DNA of 22,234 nucleotides. Source: a virus. The notes beneath the pieces are model-generated. The model was not told where the DNA came from, did no database searches, and saw only the letters and a list, made by a program, of their open reading frames with translations. Shown here piece after piece: positions 1,823-15,210 of the stretch. The stretch's first letter is position 1. Every line of letters begins with the position of its first letter. Where the stretch lies: IMG/VR virus record IMGVR_UViG_3300031658_000150, positions 1 to 22,234 of that record; one strand, written 5' to 3'. A program made the position numbers and the translations under genes.

Positions 1823-2020
1823 TTATCCCCAAACTTTAGTAGAACCTACGTAGATTGAGTTTATTGTTGTCGAGCCTATACTAAAACCAGTAAGGGCCGC
1901 GGAACCTAGATACACTTGAGTAATACCTGAACTGGTGGGTGTATAAGGGTTACTAGGTGCCCCGCCTGATTGTGTACCTAGCTTGAGATAAGGTAATTGT
2001 GTTCCGAGTTTTAAATACAT
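1823..2020 (-). CDS. Small beta-repeat tail-fibre-associated protein (65 aa)
   Basis: The 65-residue protein starts with a tandem YLKLGTQ repeat (residues 2-8 and 11-17). It continues as short beta-strand-like units with GS-T turns (VYLGSAALTG, FSIGSTTI, IYVGSTKVWG). The terminal VGSTKVWG is a motif I associate with small phage tail accessory proteins. Its ATG overlaps the stop of the preceding gene (TAATG), and GAGGTGG lies four bases upstream, so translation is probably coupled. It is the last gene before the fibre promoter. It could be a fibre tip, clamp or connector; no specific function is recognised. Confidence 0.6.
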   Translation of the reverse strand: MYLKLGTQLPYLKLGTQSGGAPSNPYTPTSSGITQVYLGSAALTGFSIGSTTINSIYVGSTKVWG

Positions 2021-3879
2021 TACACCACCTCAAGCTCAATGCTATCAATGCATATCTTAGCGACACCAGTTGGATTAGCTGCTTGGTGTCCTAATTTAAG
2101 GACACCTAACAGTTGTTGCGCCCCAACAATGTTAGAGGTAGATGAGCTAGTACCCGAAGTAAAAGTATCACTATAGATAACAGTACCTTCACCTCCATCA
2201 GAGGGTTGTATAAGCGTATTATAAGCACCAGTTGCAGCCCAGCTGGAGGAAATAGTATTACCCTCTAACTGCAGCCCAAGCTTCACACCAGTAGATACAG
2301 CACCGCCTAACGTATACTTTATACGAAGATTGGTATTAGCAGCAATCTCACTAACGCCTGTAGGCATGTCTATATAGACACGGTCATAACAATACCCATA
2401 ATTTGGAGTAGGCATAATGTGATGCACTAATTTGTTATTGTACTCAGTGGAGTTATACATCATCATCATTTCCTGGGCAGAGTATACAGTCCGACTAAAG
2501 GCAACTCTCCTACCTGAGTTTCTATCGACACCCCAAGCCTTGCCGTGAAAATTAGTCCAAGTGGCATATTGAGATGATTTAACATTATGAGATGTTGTGT
2601 TTTCTAAAGTGTCGCCAGTTGGTAATACTAAATCTCTAAAATAAACATCTCCTCTACTACTATCTATTTTTGCGCCATTAGCTAAGTAACCACCAGAAGT
2701 CACGATAGGTTCACGGTTATTAGTCCTGTAACTATAATTGTGGAGGGCATTTAAGACAGGGGCAAGGCTACCCATAGAGCCACTAAACTCGAAGACAGTT
2801 GCTAGATTAACTGCTGGGTCAACTGCCATTTCTGTAAGAGCCCCACGAGAGCCATTGAACGATCCCATATAAAAATAGAAATCATCATAGTAATCAAACT
2901 GAGTTGGGTCTGCTTGATCAATATAGTTGGTTAAGAAGGTCTTAAACTTTAAGCGGTTTGCAACAGAGCCCACCCTTCTCAGTGACATATAATACCCATT
3001 TAGGATATGCCTAATATCCCTGTTAATTCCTTGCGTGGGTGATGTGTCATGGTAAGGGCCGTAAATATCTATGTATCCAGCACTGACTAAACTATTAGCT
3101 TTGAATGTTGCACTAGCTCTTATTTGTATAAAACCTCCAGAGCCTTTACCAGAGCGTTCAATGATGTCATGCACCTCGACTGTCTTTCCATGGATAACTA
3201 TATACTTATTACTTCCAGTCGTTGAGTGCGATATGGTCAACTCAGGGGCATCTACTACCGTGTTATCTGAGTATGGGCTGTAACCAAACCACGTTTCTTT
3301 GTGATATGTCATGCCTATTCTGTGAATAATTGTCTCACCACCTCTTGCAGTTTCAGACACCCACCCTGCGGTAATGGTTACTTCCCCAGTGCCCGTGTAT
3401 AAGAGGTATTCCTTGTTGGGGTTGACTAGATTACTGAGGTAATACTGTGGGTCTAACTTATAGGCAGGTAGTAGCGTATTTGCCTTTGGACTAGAACTTT
3501 GCCAAGTCGCAGGCATGCTTCTTGTATATGCCCTGTTCGGTGTATTCCAACTAAGGTAGGTCTTCTCTCCTTTTCTCGAGGTGTATTTGATAAAAGAATG
3601 CTGGTCTGGGGCTGCTGCAAACCAAACACCGTAATTACTGCTATCCCCCGCGTACCACGCAAGTAGAGGGTCAGTGAGCCAAGGGTTTGCAGGTAAAGCC
3701 TTTAATCTAACTTCATCGCCATTGGTAATCACATTGTATCCAGACTGGCCGTGTGGCCCAGAAGGCATGTTGTCTAAGCTGTAGGGGTTAGAATATGATC
3801 CCAATGTGCCTGAACCCGTAGTTCCATCAACCCCTCCAGAAGGGGATTCTATGTAAGGGTCACACCAGAAAATAGCCAT
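2020..3879 (-). CDS. Putative tail spike / large receptor-binding structural protein (619 aa)
   Basis: The protein opens MAIFWCDPYIESPSGGVDG and then TGSGTLGSYSNPYSL, an N-terminus I recognise from structural or spike-like proteins of marine phages. It has no predicted signal peptide or membrane segment. The middle (about residues 150-470) has many short beta-strand and Gly/Asn turns and could form a beta-helix or beta-sandwich, but no catalytic motif is evident. The C-terminal 100 residues (IKYTLGGAVSTGVKLGLQLEG, then VAKICIDSIELEVV) look like a jelly-roll carbohydrate-binding or capping module. It overlaps its neighbours by TAATG on both sides, so it belongs to the fibre operon. Spike identity is inference from context and composition. 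Confidence 0.55.
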   Translation of the reverse strand: MAIFWCDPYIESPSGGVDGTTGSGTLGSYSNPYSLDNMPSGPHGQSGYNVITNGDEVRLKALPANPWLTDPLLAWYAGDSSNYGVWFAAAPDQHSFIKYTSRKGEKTYLSWNTPNRAYTRSMPATWQSSSPKANTLLPAYKLDPQYYLSNLVNPNKEYLLYTGTGEVTITAGWVSETARGGETIIHRIGMTYHKETWFGYSPYSDNTVVDAPELTISHSTTGSNKYIVIHGKTVEVHDIIERSGKGSGGFIQIRASATFKANSLVSAGYIDIYGPYHDTSPTQGINRDIRHILNGYYMSLRRVGSVANRLKFKTFLTNYIDQADPTQFDYYDDFYFYMGSFNGSRGALTEMAVDPAVNLATVFEFSGSMGSLAPVLNALHNYSYRTNNREPIVTSGGYLANGAKIDSSRGDVYFRDLVLPTGDTLENTTSHNVKSSQYATWTNFHGKAWGVDRNSGRRVAFSRTVYSAQEMMMMYNSTEYNNKLVHHIMPTPNYGYCYDRVYIDMPTGVSEIAANTNLRIKYTLGGAVSTGVKLGLQLEGNTISSSWAATGAYNTLIQPSDGGEGTVIYSDTFTSGTSSSTSNIVGAQQLLGVLKLGHQAANPTGVAKICIDSIELEVV

Positions 3880-7203: not shown

Positions 7204-7692
7204 TTAGTATGAACTGTAGGTTGTTTGAACGTTGGGCTCTCTTATCTCTTCTGACCAAGGGTTAATCATTATAGAGACTCTAGAGCCTGTCCATTGCTCG
7301 ACTTTATGAGCTATTTTTTTATCAAAAATTACTAATCTATTTGTTTCCGGAACGATAGGAGCAGCTTTAGAAGGGAAAATAAGCCTGCCTCCCTCTAAGT
7401 CTTTAACGTCTAAGTAGTATATAATAGAACATATAGGTGTTCGTATTTCTCCATATTTTTCATAAGCTATTTCATCTTTATCTATATGGTAGACACTTCT
7501 TTTAAAGTTTTTTGCGTGACACCACATTTCGTAGCCTACATAATTTAATAAGTCATAGTACTGTGACGCTATCTCTAGCAAAGACTCGGCTAACTTAGAG
7601 TTTTGTTGTTGCTCTTCTTTTGCAAAGTATAGTACTTTTTCGTGCAAAGCAACCACTGGAATAGTAGAAAATACATTATCTAGAACTATCAT
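7204..7692 (-). CDS. 2-oxoglutarate/Fe(II)-dependent dioxygenase (prolyl 4-hydroxylase-like)
   Basis: The 162-residue protein fits the double-stranded beta-helix dioxygenase fold, which hydroxylates substrates using 2-oxoglutarate, O2 and Fe(II). The iron-binding triad is visible as H69-x-D71 (VYHIDKDE) and H129 (KKIAHKVEQW). R138 (GSRVSIMINPW) is the likely 2-oxoglutarate-binding arginine. Between them, SIIYYLDVKDLEGGRLIFP matches the YLN-EGGEL-FP pattern of P4H-like enzymes. The start is separated from the upstream GNAT stop by one base (TAAGATG), suggesting coupling. Such genes are frequent in marine phages and often have unknown targets. Here it lies just after a tip protein with a collagen-like Gly-X-Pro stretch, a possible substrate, but this is inference. 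Confidence 0.85.
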   Translation of the reverse strand: MIVLDNVFSTIPVVALHEKVLYFAKEEQQQNSKLAESLLEIASQYYDLLNYVGYEMWCHAKNFKRSVYHIDKDEIAYEKYGEIRTPICSIIYYLDVKDLEGGRLIFPSKAAPIVPETNRLVIFDKKIAHKVEQWTGSRVSIMINPWSEEIREPNVQTTYSSY

Positions 7693-7693
7693 C

Positions 7694-8440
7694 TTATATT
7701 ATTAGTCCATCAGTAAAGCTACTCTCTGCGGATGCTATTGAGGATACTTCCGGAATAGCCCACTTGGGGTCGTTTATAGGTACGTTTGTTAGTTGTAAGT
7801 CTGAGTATACATAATCAGAAGTAGTATACCTAGGATCTACTCCATAAGTAGAAGAGAGACTGATATCATATATTGTGTCACTAATAATACTATTATACCT
7901 ACTAGATACGGAGAATTCTGTGTCTGTGGAGTCTGCATTTCTCTTTGTTACGAGAGCCCTTAGTGCAGGCGCACTGTGTCTTATTGTATACTTTATATCC
8001 AATATCTCCCCAGAAACTCTAGCACCAAACACTGCGAGCATACCTAACAGATGTTTCATCCTACCCTGACCTCTATATGCAGGATCCACACAAAGACTAA
8101 GATTTCTTACATCAAGAGCATTGTTTGTTGCATCGGGACGAGTGCTGTAATCTGCTGCAATTACTGCTGCAATATTATTATTGAGCTCTACTATCTGGAA
8201 GCTATATCCTCCCTCTCCAGGACTATTAGGCAGAAATGAACAAATAGCTCTCATAAACTTTTTGGCAAACAGGTCACTTATATTTTGAGCAGTGACACCT
8301 GGTTTATAAATTGGATAATCCCAATCAAGTGCTTCCCACCAAGTTCGGTCGGAGGCTCTAACTTTTCTAAAGGTATATATATCTCCTGTAGACTGTATTG
8401 TAAGAGTCATGTTATAGTCTTGTACGTGTGTAGGTACCAT
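7694..8440 (-). CDS. GNAT-family N-acetyltransferase-like protein (248 aa)
   Basis: Residues about 112-135 (LSLCVDPAYRGQGRMKHLLG) carry the acetyl-CoA pyrophosphate-binding motif A, with the R123-G-Q-G126 loop after the beta4-type strand V-D-P. Before it, AAVIAADYSTRP and a central beta-sheet pattern fit a GNAT core. The usual R-G-Q-G-x-G/A ends in Met128 instead of Gly/Ala, a mild deviation. The last 80 residues (SRYNSIISDTIYDISL onward) are an extra tail not typical of the minimal fold. AAAGGA lies seven bases before the ATG, supporting the start at 8440. It sits between the tip protein and the dioxygenase. The target, whether a tail protein or a host protein, is unknown. Confidence 0.75.
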   Translation of the reverse strand: MVPTHVQDYNMTLTIQSTGDIYTFRKVRASDRTWWEALDWDYPIYKPGVTAQNISDLFAKKFMRAICSFLPNSPGEGGYSFQIVELNNNIAAVIAADYSTRPDATNNALDVRNLSLCVDPAYRGQGRMKHLLGMLAVFGARVSGEILDIKYTIRHSAPALRALVTKRNADSTDTEFSVSSRYNSIISDTIYDISLSSTYGVDPRYTTSDYVYSDLQLTNVPINDPKWAIPEVSSIASAESSFTDGLII

Positions 8441-8451
8441 CTTTTTTCCTT

Positions 8452-11400
8452 TTATCCTTTATTATGAACGCATAGAAAATCTGCGAAGTAAGTGTGATCT
8501 CCATCCAGATATAGGTTATATACTGGAAAGTCATTCGGTCTTGAGGGTCGTGAGTCTATAGAAGTTAGCACAATAGTATCGGAATCATTAAAACCTATGA
8601 TAGTGTCTCCTACCTGTAGTTCTCCGACAATTAGTTTGTAGTGTTCTTCCCCGTCTACCTCTAAGGCTGCTTCCTTGCTTATACACTTCCAACCTTCTGT
8701 GGTAAGAAAGGCATGATTATGTGTAGTAAAACAACCCAATCCATTAAAACCGTAGATACGCTCAAAATGTCTGTCGGTAGGGTGATTTTTTAATACTTGA
8801 TTGGTTTCTGACTTTCCTAACACTAAGTCTCCTTCGTTTATCTCAGAGATAGCTTGAACAGTACCATCTTCCATACAAACTAAAGTTGATGCTATAAAAC
8901 AGGCGCTAGCTATATTTACTTCTACATAGGACCATTTTATTATTACACTTCCAGGTGCTGTATCATGTGTTACAGTGCATGAAACGCCGTCAGTATTGTT
9001 GTTATATATAGTTTTACTAAAGCTATTTGTAGAATCGGTGTGCTCAGAGACACTTACAGTTTGATTAGTAGTATTAGCTGTCCCCCTGAAATGAGCCTGC
9101 TCGTTAGTAGTGCCATTAGTTGCGTATACTATAATATCTATAGTATTAGCAGGATTCGAATTTATTTGTGTAACAGGAGCAGAAGGAGTATCCCCTCGAC
9201 CACTTTCACTGAAGATTACATGCAGTTGATCCGCTCTTATAGTCCAAGGAGAAGTGCCTGCAGCCCCTGTATTGCCTGCAGCCCCTGGATTGCCTCTAGG
9301 CCCTGGGTTTCCATCAGTTCTCTGTGAATATATTACGGGAGCTGTCCATGTGGTTGTTTGAGGAGCCGAACCATTACTTGTAAATATTCTAGATACTAAG
9401 TATACTTTATCATTATTAGAGCCTACAGCAGGCACAGCATAACCCCATCCTGCTTCTACGCCACTTATAGGGTTTGTGAAACTACCAAAAGTATTAGAAG
9501 TAATGGTTGAATCATTTAATTTATATAAGTTAACCTGTCTTGTTCCTACACCTGATATAGTAGTACCATCTACTCTACGTGCATAAACTGCCGCAGCAGG
9601 CCATGCGTCTGTTTGAGGAACCGAACCATCACTAGTAAATATCCTACTCATAGCGTATACTACATCACCATTTGCAGTCATACCTGGGACTGAATAACTC
9701 CATGATGTGTTATTGTCTAGTGGATCTGCGAAAGTTCCACTACTATCATTCCGTGAAGCGCTATTTAATCTATAAAGTGTTGGGTATCTTGAATTTATTG
9801 CATTAGTTCCATCTGTTTTTCTGGCGTATATAGTAGGAGTAGACCATGTAATAGATACGTTAGTGTCCGTAACAGCAGACTGTAATAGAACATTACACGC
9901 ATATATTGTGTCTCCATTATTAGTTATACTAGGAGGGGCTAGATTCCAGCTGGCATTGTTAATTGTTAAAGTACCATTAGTTGAATTAAATTTAGATTGG
10001 CCATTAGAAGGTTTTGCAGGGGAGCTTCCATTGCTGGCTACAACATCTGAATAAACTTTTAATTCTGCTACCACACTACCTTCTACTTGGAATACAGCTC
10101 CCCATACATATGCAAGTGCTCCGACTGCTGCAAACCCTTTTGATGCCCATAAAGTAGTCGTGCCTGCAGGAGGACTATCATACCATTGAACATTGCTATA
10201 AGGTACATTGAGGCCATTAGCCGTTGGAGTGTTCGGCGCAGTGGCCGACCTATGAAATACCCAGTTAGTGCTAGCGCCATTATTACCATTAGTGCCCGAA
10301 GCACTTGTAACAACAGCATCAGAAAATTCACTGGCAAGAATACTATCGCTACCTGTATTAGAACTAGCCGTGGCTTGAATTATCCATAGAAAAGATCCTT
10401 GGGGTACTGTAGGAACTGTACGAGTCCAACTATTAAGATTACCACCTGCTGTTGCACTTTCTGTTACTAGACCAGAAGCAAAATTATATACAAGGGTACC
10501 TGTAGGATCATTGGGAGCAGCAGAGTCGCTCGAAGAAACTCTATATAAACCTACTAGTGCATTGGCGTTACCGGCTGCACCTGTTATACTTTGTCCATTT
10601 TCTCCTACTCCGCTATGCACTACAGCAGCAGAAAATTCACTGGTAGGAATACTATCGGTAGCAGCACTAGAACTGGCTGTAGCTTGTCTGACCCATGCAT
10701 ACTCTCCGTTAGATAAAGAGGGAACTATAGTAGTCCAACTATTAAGAGTACCACCTGTTACTGCACCAGTAGCAAAAGTATATGTAAAGGTGCCCGAGAA
10801 TTCAGCGGGAGCAACAGAGTCGCTCGTATTTTTACGGTATAAAGATAAGGTAGCACCGTTCGCCCCTGGACCTCCATCAATAACGGCAGCAGAAACACCC
10901 GCCAATCCGCTTACGCTTACGTCGATAGTATTGCTACCTGTGGTAGCACCAACTAAAGGAGAATTATTACGTCTAGAAGATTCAATAGATGCTAACTGAG
11001 ACCTTACTATAGCTACATGCCTTACCCAATAGTATCTAGTAGTTGCAGTAGTGTTACCTTGAACGGCCTGCCATTCCTGAGCAGTGGTCTCTCCTATTAG
11101 TTCTGCCGAGCTGAAAGGACTAGCACTAGTATGTCTCCATACCTCCGTAATATGATGTTGAGGATCAAACTGCGAGGAATTTGTCCAAGTTAATTCAACA
11201 TTACCCTTTTTTGTATTTGACGTAAAATTAGTAAGAGCTGCTTGGTCATTTTTATTTTGAATAGAGCCTGTTTCTATTTCACTACCTACAGTCGGTTTAG
11301 AGACATTTTTTATTAAATAAGCTGAATTATTGTGTTCATCTGCCGTAATACTAACTAAACAATCTGACTGAGTTATATGACTTGAGATTCTAAACTCTTT

Positions 11401-14400
11401 ATTAACCCAACCAAATCTAGGGTAGTTCAGCTGAATAATACTACCTGGTAGCAGCAATAGACCTTTCGGCATCATCTTAAAGGATACCGATAGCCCGTAA
11501 CGAGACTCGTCAAGCATTTGATTAATGTTATATCGAGCATTAAAGTAGTTCGTAACGCCTGGCATTCCGAAAGTACCCTTCTTAGGTATAAATTTATCCT
11601 CATTCAAGTAAGTAGAGTTAAAGAAGGATACAGATCTAGACTCAAACTTAGTAGCAGGGTCTTTAATGCTAGTACTGATAGAGTTATAAGACTTTTTTAT
11701 GCCTGCGTCCTTTAAAGAGATATCTCCTATAATATCGTCTTCATATATTCTTTCCCCAACAACGAAAATATCAGGCGATTGTCCTTTTATATCTAGCTGG
11801 TACTTGCCATTGCTATATCTTAGAATACCATTAAACTGTTTGAGCATATTATTGATATTATCAAATATAGGAGAAGACGTTGTTACTATTTGATTCATCT
11901 GATGTCGCGTAACATTACGCTGCTCATGTTTATCCCAGCCTAAATATTTCCAGTACTTTACGTCGTCGCTATCATATAAAGCGTAACCAGAGCCTTCGAA
12001 TCTACCTTTTGCCCCTACAGTAGCCTTCCAGGATTTTACCAAAGGATTATAATGTGAGGTAGGTGCTACAAGATCAAGAGCTAAGTTAGTAGGACCTGTT
12101 CCTGAAACCTTACCTAAAGAGAACGAAGTTATTCTATTACCAGCAACAATAGTGTATACTCCGCTAGAAGTAGTTTTGTACAGGCGACCGTTTAAGGGAT
12201 TCCACACTAACTCATGAGCTCTCCGCGTCTTCCAGTTATTATCTCTATGACCCAGTTTACCGATAACGTTACTAAAAACTACTTCTTTATATGCAGTATT
12301 ACCTGCAGAACCCGCAGATACTGAGGTAATCGACTGTATAGTACCTCTAAAATGCACTACGCCACTAGGAGCATACTGATATACTGCCCCAACGGCTGCA
12401 TTGCTTATTTGACTAGATAGCACAGCTACAGATACAGTCGAACGGGTATCACAAAGACGTGCAGACTGTAAAAAGCTTTGTAGGTCAATATCTTCCTCTA
12501 AATCTAATCCTCTTCCGTAAAGGGGGCTAGTTAAGTAGTCTAACAGCTGTAACGCAGGGTTTGTAGACACTCGTACGTCTGTCTTAAAGTCGCTTATAAA
12601 GTACTTAGAGCCTGCGGTAGGAAGATAGGCGGGGTCCCAAGGAGCATTAACTACAGCTACATTACCGGAATTTTTGTATTCTATAATGTCTCTTTCTTGT
12701 ATATTAGGAACTCCAGCAGAGTCAAAATGCTTAAGAACTATCTTATAACCTTTATAAAAGTCATCTGCTGCTGAGTCTCCCGAGGCAAGCACTATACCAT
12801 TTTTCATGTGAACTTCTGTAATAGTACTGTTTAGTGAAGTAACAGCGGTTCCTACACCGACTCCTGTAAACGTATTATTTGCAAAAGAAACATTATTAAA
12901 AGTACTTGCCCGCAACCCTAAACGGGCAGAGCTTGAAAATGATATATTTCCAGCTCCACCCTCTCCTCCAATACCCGCTGCGTAAGCAGACGAAAAAGGA
13001 GTTGATGCAGCAACTACTACATCAACACCTGATCCTGTAGAACTTGAACTGCTGCTACTAATCGTTGTTTTACACTCATCAACTACTGTACCTTCTACCT
13101 GCCCTGTAGTAGTCTCAGGCGACATATACCACCTAGAATTATTCGAAGATTTCATATAGTGAGCTTCTGTTATGTCAGCATTATGGTCTGTTCTAAAGCG
13201 TGTTTGACTGACTCCTTCAGGGTCAATAAGAATCCATTTATCTATAATAGTAACGCCCGAAGCTATAGTAGCGTTATTAGACGTCTTTATTAAAGTAACA
13301 GTATCACCTAGTTTAAACTGTGAGGGAGCTGCCGAGGTTGCATTAGTTTGATTATAGCTTCTATCATAGTTGTAACATTTTACACCTTTACCTCTTACTA
13401 CAAAGTCTAGTTCCGGTACGCTTGTCTCTCCTACACCTATAGTAAACTCCCCTACAACATAAGCAGTATCTAGCAACCTGTGCTGCGCACCCCAATAAGG
13501 GTCTGTATCAGTATAGTAACTATTTTGTATTTTAAAACCGTTTGCATTTGCTTTAGCTACCATACGAGGGTTAGCTTGCTGATCTGGCTTACCTACATGT
13601 ATTTGAAAGTTAGCTGTTAGGGGAGAAGTAATCGTATGAGTTTGTTCATGAAGCATTCCTGTATCTGCATCAACAGCAGTAGCATTAGTCTGAATACTTG
13701 TTTGATAGTACTCGCTCTGCTGATATGCCTCTACGGCCGCGTCAAAGTCCGCACCAAATGCACCCCAAAGTTCATAACTACCGCCCATAATTGTTATAGT
13801 AGAACTTGTTAGATGGTGCCCTCTAAAAGTATCTCCTCTATCCATTCGACCTCTACAAACAAGATCTACGGCGGGGCTTGCGGTGGATCTTGCATCAAAG
13901 TCAGCTTGATCTACACAAATACTACTATTGCCATCAATATATATATCGAACAAGCCAGAGATAGGTCCTTCACAAATTGCGTACACTACAGTAAGTTTTG
14001 AAGCATCAGCTTGATCAGTATCTACAAATATAGGTATAGCGTCTGTTTTCTGTACTCCATAAATAACAGGTAAGTACTTAGGAGACAAATTAAAAGATAA
14101 ATCTACACGTTTTTGAACTGTAGTTTCAACCTCTTTTAGTCTTTTACCTCCAGGCCATCCACCATTAATATCTACTTGTTTGTAGCTTATTTCCACATCA
14201 TTGTACAATGCCATAACATTTAAAGCTTGGTTCGCATGAGCAAAGCCTAGGTCGCCTGCATACTCAGGTCTTAAAGTATTATTTGCGTCAGAGTTGCCAG
14301 CGCCATCTAAAGATCTATGGCTTTCATCAATTGTTAATCTTCCTGCTACTCTTTGAAAGTCCCCCCAATGGCTTGATAAGCCCCAAGTTACTGTAGAGCT

Positions 14401-15210
14401 TTTATCAGGTGATTCTTTTATTTGACCGTTTGAGATTATACCTTTGAAAAGTAGATAAGGGTCTCCTATAATTGCATTCGTATCAGAGTCTAAGTGCGCC
14501 TTATATATAAACACTTCTCTATTAAGGTAAGTCTTATAGGCTGTAGTATCTTTATTTATAACTAAAGCATTTATCTCTTCGGCTGCTAGAGAGATTTTGT
14601 ACGACCCCATAGCGGTTCCTGTAGTTATAGAAGCTGTTTGAGCCAGTGTATAAGTAATATGATTACCATTAGACTTAAAGGTATCTATAGTTACATATAT
14701 ACCTCCTCCGGTGTTTATATTGCCATTACTAGTAGTGATATGTATTTTATCGCCTTCTCTAAAGCCCTCTTCTCTTAGATCAATACCTACAGCAGCATGT
14801 ATTTCGGTAGCACTAAGCCACAAATCTAAGGAGGTAGCGGAGGCTCCAAGACCTGAAGCATCTAACGACAGGGACATATTTGTAGACTTTGCCTCAGTAG
14901 TTTCAGTTACAGAACCTACTTTAGAAACTTTATTAGCGTGGTAGTTTTGAGTGCCATTAGCTGTACCTCCAGCATCAATAGATAAGTCATCCCATTCAAC
15001 ATCAAAAGCACTGTCTGTTATATAAGAATATGTATTAGCCTTTCTAGAGGTTTTTCCTTTTATGGAGACTGTTGTAGGTCTTTCAAACTTTACAAGATGA
15101 GCGTAATTAAACGTAACATTCTCAAGTAAAGAGTCTGATAAAGGAGTGGGCGTTGTTGTGTCGCTGCTGTCTAGATTTCTTAGCCTTCTGTCTATGTCAC
15201 GAATTGTCAT
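8452..15210 (-). CDS. J-like tail tip / host specificity protein with C-terminal Hint domain (2252 aa)
   Basis: This is the central tip protein, which in lambda-type tails forms the hub and contacts the receptor. Residues 1-360 are a beta-rich region with WGLSSHWGDFQRVAGRL and DESHR (about 276-300). J-like signatures follow: PVIYG and AICEGPISGLFDIYIDG (about 378-425), PALQLLDYLTSPLYGRGLDL (about 885-905) with IDLQSFLQSARLCD, and LLPGSIIQLNYPRFGWVNKEF (about 1250). A fibronectin III-like domain lies near 1325-1420. Next come two related blocks (about 1445-1635), a three-unit repeat (about 1715-1966), a collagen-like stretch (1967-1985), a beta-domain (about 1988-2103) and a Hint domain (2104-2250). 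At 2252 residues it is about twice lambda J. Its ATG overlaps the upstream stop (TAATG), and GAGGAGG is nearby. Confidence 0.85.
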   Translation of the reverse strand: MTIRDIDRRLRNLDSSDTTTPTPLSDSLLENVTFNYAHLVKFERPTTVSIKGKTSRKANTYSYITDSAFDVEWDDLSIDAGGTANGTQNYHANKVSKVGSVTETTEAKSTNMSLSLDASGLGASATSLDLWLSATEIHAAVGIDLREEGFREGDKIHITTSNGNINTGGGIYVTIDTFKSNGNHITYTLAQTASITTGTAMGSYKISLAAEEINALVINKDTTAYKTYLNREVFIYKAHLDSDTNAIIGDPYLLFKGIISNGQIKESPDKSSTVTWGLSSHWGDFQRVAGRLTIDESHRSLDGAGNSDANNTLRPEYAGDLGFAHANQALNVMALYNDVEISYKQVDINGGWPGGKRLKEVETTVQKRVDLSFNLSPKYLPVIYGVQKTDAIPIFVDTDQADASKLTVVYAICEGPISGLFDIYIDGNSSICVDQADFDARSTASPAVDLVCRGRMDRGDTFRGHHLTSSTITIMGGSYELWGAFGADFDAAVEAYQQSEYYQTSIQTNATAVDADTGMLHEQTHTITSPLTANFQIHVGKPDQQANPRMVAKANANGFKIQNSYYTDTDPYWGAQHRLLDTAYVVGEFTIGVGETSVPELDFVVRGKGVKCYNYDRSYNQTNATSAAPSQFKLGDTVTLIKTSNNATIASGVTIIDKWILIDPEGVSQTRFRTDHNADITEAHYMKSSNNSRWYMSPETTTGQVEGTVVDECKTTISSSSSSSTGSGVDVVVAASTPFSSAYAAGIGGEGGAGNISFSSSARLGLRASTFNNVSFANNTFTGVGVGTAVTSLNSTITEVHMKNGIVLASGDSAADDFYKGYKIVLKHFDSAGVPNIQERDIIEYKNSGNVAVVNAPWDPAYLPTAGSKYFISDFKTDVRVSTNPALQLLDYLTSPLYGRGLDLEEDIDLQSFLQSARLCDTRSTVSVAVLSSQISNAAVGAVYQYAPSGVVHFRGTIQSITSVSAGSAGNTAYKEVVFSNVIGKLGHRDNNWKTRRAHELVWNPLNGRLYKTTSSGVYTIVAGNRITSFSLGKVSGTGPTNLALDLVAPTSHYNPLVKSWKATVGAKGRFEGSGYALYDSDDVKYWKYLGWDKHEQRNVTRHQMNQIVTTSSPIFDNINNMLKQFNGILRYSNGKYQLDIKGQSPDIFVVGERIYEDDIIGDISLKDAGIKKSYNSISTSIKDPATKFESRSVSFFNSTYLNEDKFIPKKGTFGMPGVTNYFNARYNINQMLDESRYGLSVSFKMMPKGLLLLPGSIIQLNYPRFGWVNKEFRISSHITQSDCLVSITADEHNNSAYLIKNVSKPTVGSEIETGSIQNKNDQAALTNFTSNTKKGNVELTWTNSSQFDPQHHITEVWRHTSASPFSSAELIGETTAQEWQAVQGNTTATTRYYWVRHVAIVRSQLASIESSRRNNSPLVGATTGSNTIDVSVSGLAGVSAAVIDGGPGANGATLSLYRKNTSDSVAPAEFSGTFTYTFATGAVTGGTLNSWTTIVPSLSNGEYAWVRQATASSSAATDSIPTSEFSAAVVHSGVGENGQSITGAAGNANALVGLYRVSSSDSAAPNDPTGTLVYNFASGLVTESATAGGNLNSWTRTVPTVPQGSFLWIIQATASSNTGSDSILASEFSDAVVTSASGTNGNNGASTNWVFHRSATAPNTPTANGLNVPYSNVQWYDSPPAGTTTLWASKGFAAVGALAYVWGAVFQVEGSVVAELKVYSDVVASNGSSPAKPSNGQSKFNSTNGTLTINNASWNLAPPSITNNGDTIYACNVLLQSAVTDTNVSITWSTPTIYARKTDGTNAINSRYPTLYRLNSASRNDSSGTFADPLDNNTSWSYSVPGMTANGDVVYAMSRIFTSDGSVPQTDAWPAAAVYARRVDGTTISGVGTRQVNLYKLNDSTITSNTFGSFTNPISGVEAGWGYAVPAVGSNNDKVYLVSRIFTSNGSAPQTTTWTAPVIYSQRTDGNPGPRGNPGAAGNTGAAGTSPWTIRADQLHVIFSESGRGDTPSAPVTQINSNPANTIDIIVYATNGTTNEQAHFRGTANTTNQTVSVSEHTDSTNSFSKTIYNNNTDGVSCTVTHDTAPGSVIIKWSYVEVNIASACFIASTLVCMEDGTVQAISEINEGDLVLGKSETNQVLKNHPTDRHFERIYGFNGLGCFTTHNHAFLTTEGWKCISKEAALEVDGEEHYKLIVGELQVGDTIIGFNDSDTIVLTSIDSRPSRPNDFPVYNLYLDGDHTYFADFLCVHNKG
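8455..8901 (-). other. C-terminal Hint (hedgehog/intein) domain of the tip protein
   Basis: Residues 2104-2252 form a minimal Hint module of about 149 residues. Block A is C2104-FIASTLVCMEDG. EINEGDLVLG follows. Block B is the T2163-H-N-H2166 motif (CFTTHNHAFLTTEGW). Block F is VYNLYLDGDHTYFAD (2230-2244). The end is V-H2249-N2250-K2251-G2252 then stop. All self-cleavage residues are present, but the residue after Asn2250 is Lys rather than Cys/Ser/Thr, and only two residues follow. Normal splicing is therefore not expected. N-terminal thioester formation at Ala2103-Cys2104, cleavage, or transfer to another nucleophile is possible. There is no homing endonuclease insert. Confidence 0.85.
9249..9315 (-). 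repeat. Collagen-like Gly-X-Y stretch in the tip protein
   Basis: Residues 1966-1988 read as six consecutive Gly-X-Y triplets plus a seventh Gly (GNP, GPR, GNP, GAA, GNT, GAA, then G). Two triplets have proline in the Y position, where collagen prolines are hydroxylated. Such stretches make triple-helical linkers in phage fibres, implying that this part of the tip protein is trimeric. Confidence 0.75.
9311..10068 (-). repeat. Three tandem beta-rich protein repeats in the tip protein
   Basis: Three units of about 83 residues, roughly 9813-10068, 9563-9812 and 9311-9562, share the pattern W-xx-P, NGD-VYA, then SRIFTS-GS-PQT, W-xP-IYARR-DGT. The last two are closest, and DNA similarity is visible (for example 9613-9660 against 9350-9400). 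The first unit is more divergent. They likely form stacked domains extending toward the receptor. Boundaries are approximate. Confidence 0.7.
10310..10880 (-). repeat. Two tandem beta-rich protein repeats in the tip protein
   Basis: Two units of about 90-100 residues (roughly 10622-10880 and 10310-10620) share LYR-xx-SDS-AP, TGTLVYNFASG or SGTFTYTFATG, NSWT-xx-VP, WV-QATASS and DSI-xSEFS-AVV. Nucleotide similarity is obvious near 10320-10380 and 10628-10690. They precede the second repeat family and probably form a rod. Boundaries are approximate. Confidence 0.7.

Follow-up and report, generated by a model that had tools for sequence, protein, structure and literature searches.

A candidate A-type BIL-like Hint domain at the C-terminus of a phage tail-tip protein

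What could a Hint autoprocessing domain do at the very end of a phage tail tip, where only Lys-Gly follows it? The question is raised by a 22,234-nucleotide stretch (the window) that comprises the 22 kb IMG/VR record IMGVR_UViG_3300031658_000150 of an uncultivated virus. The minus strand of the window carries a siphovirus tail module that encodes, in order, a tube-like protein, a pair of assembly chaperones, the tape measure (phrog_3779), the distal tail protein (phrog_1302) and a J-type tip. The match of the last gene to the central tail fiber J (phrog_31, E 2.7e-29) and its position behind the phrog_3779 and phrog_1302 genes assign it as the J-type central tail fibre. The tail region also encodes a 619-residue protein (2020-3879) without any Pfam match. 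The features of the tip and of the genes that follow it are:

8452..15210, minus strand: J-type tail-tip protein of 2252 aa, carrier of the Hint domain (open reading frame; phrog_31 match)
11335..11907, minus strand: conserved J core, residues 1102-1292 (best phrog_31 stretch; 56-78% identity to the sister tips L004-L007)
9256..9312, minus strand: collagen-like Gly-X-Y stretch GNPGPRGNPGAAGNTGAAG, residues 1967-1985 (read in the sequence)
8902..9255, minus strand: last tip domain ahead of the Hint domain, residues 1986-2103 (homologous to the C-terminus of sister J)
8455..8901, minus strand: Hint autoprocessing domain with its trailing Lys-Gly, residues 2104-2252 (E 1.5e-34 to a profile that excludes the window; predicted fold)
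8899..8901, minus strand: Cys2104, block A nucleophile, with the putative scissile bond at Ala2103-Cys2104 (invariant in an 18-sequence alignment)
8713..8724, minus strand: block B, T2163-x-x-H2166 (His invariant in the same alignment)
8461..8466, minus strand: block G, H2249-N2250 (His in 18 of 18 sequences, Asn in 17 of 18)
8458..8460, minus strand: Lys2251, the +1 residue (Lys/Arg in 21 of 22 distinct domains, +1 left free)
7694-8440: GNAT-like acetyltransferase gene directly after J (match below the Pfam cut-off)
7204-7692: 2OG-Fe(II) oxygenase gene, two genes after J (PF13640, above its cut-off)

The Hint domain of the tail tip

The open reading frame and its translation confirmed the coordinates given for the Hint domain in the original prediction (8455-8901) and a tip ending in HNKG. 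The catalytic positions were likewise found where they had been placed: Cys2104, T2163-x-x-H2166, the VYNLYLDGDHTYF block, as read in the sequence, and H2249-N2250-K2251-G2252. The Hint domain proper spans residues 2104-2250 of the 2252-residue tip and has the full set of catalytic residues. The J gene closes with AAA GGA TAA (...CVHNKG in the protein) and the next gene begins 11 bases past this stop with its own AAGGA and ATG; the stop is therefore real as far as the sequence tells. We found J together with this Hint domain on a single contig only, and the GC3 of the Hint region (0.289) is in line with the rest of J (mean 0.260, sd 0.042) and thus does not suggest a chimeric join.

Curated models were weak on this domain. 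Pfam and NCBIfam both detected it below their own cut-offs (25.3 bits against 29.7 for Pfam Hint, PF01079), so that a wider family was needed as proof. Direct searches with the domain as the query retrieved no relative from IMG/VR and only internal inteins from cultured phages, which again called for a family profile; two other family members, used as queries against cultured phages, retrieved inteins at best and otherwise no match. When a profile was built from 24 relatives, with the window excluded, the domain matched it along its entire length (113.8 bits, E 1.5e-34). Shuffled sequences, 1000 in all, scored no higher than 4.2 bits with the same profile and, thus, the match is not due to chance.

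The AlphaFold2 model computed from the 18-sequence alignment (pLDDT 90.7, pTM 0.86) shows the horseshoe fold, which, together with the block A Cys1 and block B TxxH, assigns the domain to the Hint superfamily. The best PDB matches of the model were BIL and intein folds (Foldseek E 8e-9). BIL2 gave the top structure match (Z 20.1, rmsd 1.9 over 139 residues), with lower scores for the gp41-1 intein (Z 16.8), the Clostridium thermocellum BIL (2LWY, Z 16.4) and hedgehog (1AT0, Z 14.5). The best matches therefore include BIL2 and 2LWY, but inteins too.

The junction in sister phages

Using residues 1102-1292 of the J core as the query, we retrieved sister tips on four IMG/VR contigs (L004, L005, L006 and L007). 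The nearest one, L004 (60% identity over residues 2-1298), is on a contig that ends inside the gene; the other three tips are complete and have no Hint domain. L005 and the window tip are colinear in one piece from residue 9 to residue 2079, beyond which 29 residues remain in L005 and 24 precede Cys2104 in the window. Hence, the colinear sister J stops within about five residues of the Hint start. BLAST alone gave no link between L005 and the final 350 residues of the window J, and nothing was found in a search with the last tip domain as the query. The homology of this domain is based on the full-length colinear alignment plus a shuffle test, in which the local alignment to sister J scored 77-78 and the shuffle maximum was 67 (0/2000).

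Because the Hint domain starts where the sister tip simply ends, it is best described as an add-on behind a complete tip and not as an insertion. The three complete sister tips, which lack the domain and stop at its start, further indicate that a tip without Hint is a working tip. We detected no decayed Hint domain beyond the stop codons of the sister J genes, despite a tblastn match that seemed to cross the stop, and none elsewhere in the sister contigs, which are fragments. Absent from sister J and located at their variable C-terminus, the domain occupies a variable place rather than a conserved intein site. The genes after J differ as well: the GNAT-like and oxygenase genes have no match in the sister contigs examined, where two other ORFs follow J in their place. 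The end of J therefore belongs to a variable cassette.

The collagen-like stretch of the tip (GNP GPR GNP GAA GNT GAA) has prolines that are partly in the Y position. Y-position prolines of collagen are substrates of prolyl hydroxylases, and the predicted 2OG-Fe(II) oxygenase may hydroxylate this segment of the tip.

A family with Lys or Arg after His-Asn

To define the family, viral contigs and bacterial and archaeal genomes were scanned with patterns of the block that precedes the terminal His-Asn, leaving +1 free. The viral scans used restrictive patterns, and one scan with Lys/Arg fixed in its pattern was excluded from the +1 count. Lys or Arg stood right behind His-Asn in 21 of the 22 distinct domains, the sole exception (L082) having lost the Asn (His-Gly). 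The binomial chance of such a count is about 1e-18 with a 12% background and relatedness ignored. Further, the strong matches of a profile search of 398 genomes (L094 and L095) have Lys, as does L088 from a plasmid collection; weak matches have Asp, Cys, Ala or Gly at +1, or no His-Asn. Family members share only 26-43% identity with the window Hint, in whose relatives the catalytic residues are all kept, and are on unrelated carriers. These comparisons indicate that the basic +1 residue is part of the Hint module and not a product of chance. The Lys-Gly that the original prediction had treated as a mere leftover thus includes a family-wide feature. Six members end one or two residues past His-Asn: the window (KG), L045 (K), the second copy of L070 (KW), L076 (RE), L079 (K) and L087 (K). 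The family tree placed the window Hint weakly.

Among the carriers are J, tail-assembly protein I, DUF4815/VrlC virion proteins and glycine-rich proteins (L070 and L076). The downstream tail genes of L070 are common to the window (50% and 36% identity). In L043, a Hint domain ending in AHNRGDN lies behind a tail-assembly protein I that is itself complete (it covers positions 4-200 of 203 in phrog_32), an add-on arrangement like that of the window tip, and the gene right after it is a J with a different, N-terminal Hint domain. In this region (L043/L057, 2375-9573), adjacent tail-tip genes each carry a Hint domain, C-terminal in I and N-terminal in J; the J domain ends in RVSNGGGG, with the penultimate His replaced by Ser, and resembles Vibrio phage helicase inteins. 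Tandem Hint pairs close the proteins of L070 (5773-7899) and L045 (5824-8091), the second copy being C-terminal (HNKW and HNK, respectively). The N-terminal segments of some bacterial carriers (L079 and L088) resemble signal peptides, judged by eye. The L088 protein (8839-9570, Aeromonas caviae) has this signal-peptide-like start, almost at once a Hint-Lys domain, and then a Gly/Ser-rich tail; its record is listed as a plasmid of 4.9 Mb and is probably a mislabelled chromosome.

A-type BILs are defined by a C-terminal His-Asn without a +1 nucleophile (PMC4031507, PMC7765530), and the HNKG ending of the tip fits this definition. The closest solved relative is BIL2 from the Tetrahymena BUBL1 polyubiquitin locus (6Y75, 6TMM), the top match in sequence (E 1.7e-12, at 21-23% identity) as in structure, which has the same Cys1, block B His and terminal His-Asn. 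BIL2 lies, however, between ubiquitin-like domains and passes one of them to Lys, whereas the window Hint has a phage tip as its N-flank and is followed by Lys-Gly only. A-type BILs such as 2LWY share with it the terminal His-Asn, the lack of a +1 nucleophile, the fold and a location at variable ends of proteins. The window family differs in its near-invariant basic +1 residue and often extreme C-terminal position, neither of which, to our knowledge, characterizes the classical BIL set.

Other classes fit less well. Class 1 inteins (gp41-1, DnaB) resemble the domain in fold (Z 16-17) and catalytic residues, but the tip continues only with Lys2251, Gly and the stop, without a +1 Cys/Ser/Thr or C-extein, and the domain is not at a conserved site of its host protein. 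The hedgehog Hog domain is also a C-terminal Hint that acts on its N side; unlike it, the window Hint has a terminal His-Asn, two residues past which the protein ends, leaving no sterol-recognition region or sterol-binding-like extension, and we rejected hedgehog-like sterol transfer. B-type BILs lack the C-terminal His-Asn motif present here (H2249-N2250), and Pretoxin HINT (PF07591) scored 16.3 bits against a cut-off of 27.7. Hint domains in phage proteins are not new as such, since 'Hint domain containing protein' entries from uncultured Caudovirales, so far unstudied, are already in public databases. In the open-access literature searched, phage Hint domains occur solely as inteins or as insertions resembling them, in terminase, reductase or helicase, and none is on a tail protein. 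For this reason we regard the window Hint as a new form of A-type BIL-like domain, one that would work like an A-type BIL.

Candidate fates of the tip

The active site is intact and the domain is, from its residues, apparently active. Cys2104, aided by His2166, would attack the carbonyl of Ala2103 and form a thioester at the Ala2103-Cys2104 junction. This thioester would be resolved mostly by hydrolysis, separating the tip chain from the A-type-BIL-like module behind it and leaving a mature tip that ends at Ala2103. We rate this maturation highest, at roughly even chances, because reviews describe mostly cleavage for domains that end in His-Asn and lack a +1 nucleophile (PMC4031507; PMC7765530) and because sister tips without Hint exist. 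The same reviews support the original prediction in expecting cleavage or transfer instead of canonical splicing. Its premise that splicing requires Cys/Ser/Thr at +1 was too strict, given that aminolysis allows type A BILs to splice as well (PMC4031507) and that BIL2 joins its N-flank to a Lys epsilon-amine through an isopeptide bond (PMC8616854).

Before departing, the Hint domain may assist folding or trimerisation of the chain, as C-terminal domains that are later removed do in other fibres. The C-terminal chaperones of the peptidase S74 type in phage fibres cut themselves off; the role proposed here is the same, with an unrelated fold and chemistry. Asn2250 could cyclise and free Lys-Gly, which alone would change nothing useful, and the six members that end one or two residues past His-Asn suggest that a useful product would arise only on the N side. 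Speaking against cleavage, the combination of J and Hint in the window is a singleton, searches of IMG/VR and cultured phages retrieved no close relative of the domain, and the contig of the nearest sister, L004, is cut before the C-terminus. Further, we know of no N-side-only Hint domain (hedgehog, B-type BILs) that keeps the terminal His-Asn. The retention in this family of both His-Asn and a basic +1 hints, therefore, at coupled C-side chemistry and counts against hydrolysis.

The main rival to hydrolysis, by analogy with BIL2, is transfer to an amine: the thioester would pass to a Lys on the host surface, on a neighbouring tip chain or on a different tail protein, and the tip would become covalently attached via Ala2103. 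Transfer is a serious rival because the closest solved relative forms just such a bond, and the carriers are surface or assembly proteins. Yet no acceptor is visible, the ubiquitin-like surroundings of BIL2 are missing from the window J, and several members have Arg instead of Lys at +1, so that the +1 side chain is not a general acceptor; we consider transfer possible but unlikely. It is doubtful, too, that the Hint-Lys/Arg module serves many unrelated virion and surface proteins as a self-catalysed means of attachment, by which the C-terminus of the tail tip would be activated as a thioester and passed to an amine on the host or on another tail protein. If so, phage tails would have built-in isopeptide cross-links that need no enzyme or ATP.

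Improbable, in our view, is a domain that has lost its processing activity and remains on the tip as an inactive passenger or structural element: the sisters manage without Hint and the Asn can be lost (L082), but the catalytic set is intact in the window and nearly all relatives. The retained His-Asn-Lys/Arg is explained by neither hydrolysis nor transfer. Splicing of the BIL type, in which cyclisation of Asn2250 frees Lys-Gly, whose amine then attacks the thioester and leaves the tip with a C-terminal Lys-Gly, would explain it, also where only one or two residues follow, and aminolysis has the type A precedent (PMC4031507). Such splicing looks inefficient, however, as a released dipeptide or single Lys would diffuse away and the studied BILs mainly cleave; we regard it as quite improbable. 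A remnant of an ordinary intein that lost its C-extein is scarcely credible, for although the fold is common to inteins in phage terminase or helicase genes, sister J ends at the junction with no extra C-terminal part beyond it, the +1 Lys/Arg is family-wide and the same ending recurs in several unrelated carriers.

If the domain is active, phage adhesion proteins would carry at their own end a single-turnover domain that matures them, as in the hydrolysis we favor, or couples them; the open-access literature searched describes no such route for tails. The Lys/Arg-ended family would also provide C-terminal thioester-forming domains from a new source, and several relatives are small, testable constructs.

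The VrlC/DUF4815 carriers offer a separate view of the junction. In these proteins the Hint domain precedes a PLAQTF domain. In L055 and L066, the DUF4815/phrog_358 virion protein ends in Hint and the remainder of the same protein, with the PLAQTF domain, is encoded as the next gene; in L054 the Hint domain is inside one chain, directly ahead of DPIAQTF. Pelagibacter phage HTVC008M has one 2001-residue VrlC/DUF4815 chain without Hint. The split genes on the one hand and the single chain of HTVC008M on the other indicate that this junction tolerates a break. Together, these arrangements (L066, 5814-11557; L055, 2317-8121; L054, 4672-8094; and HTVC008M) outline how autocleavage might have led to split genes.
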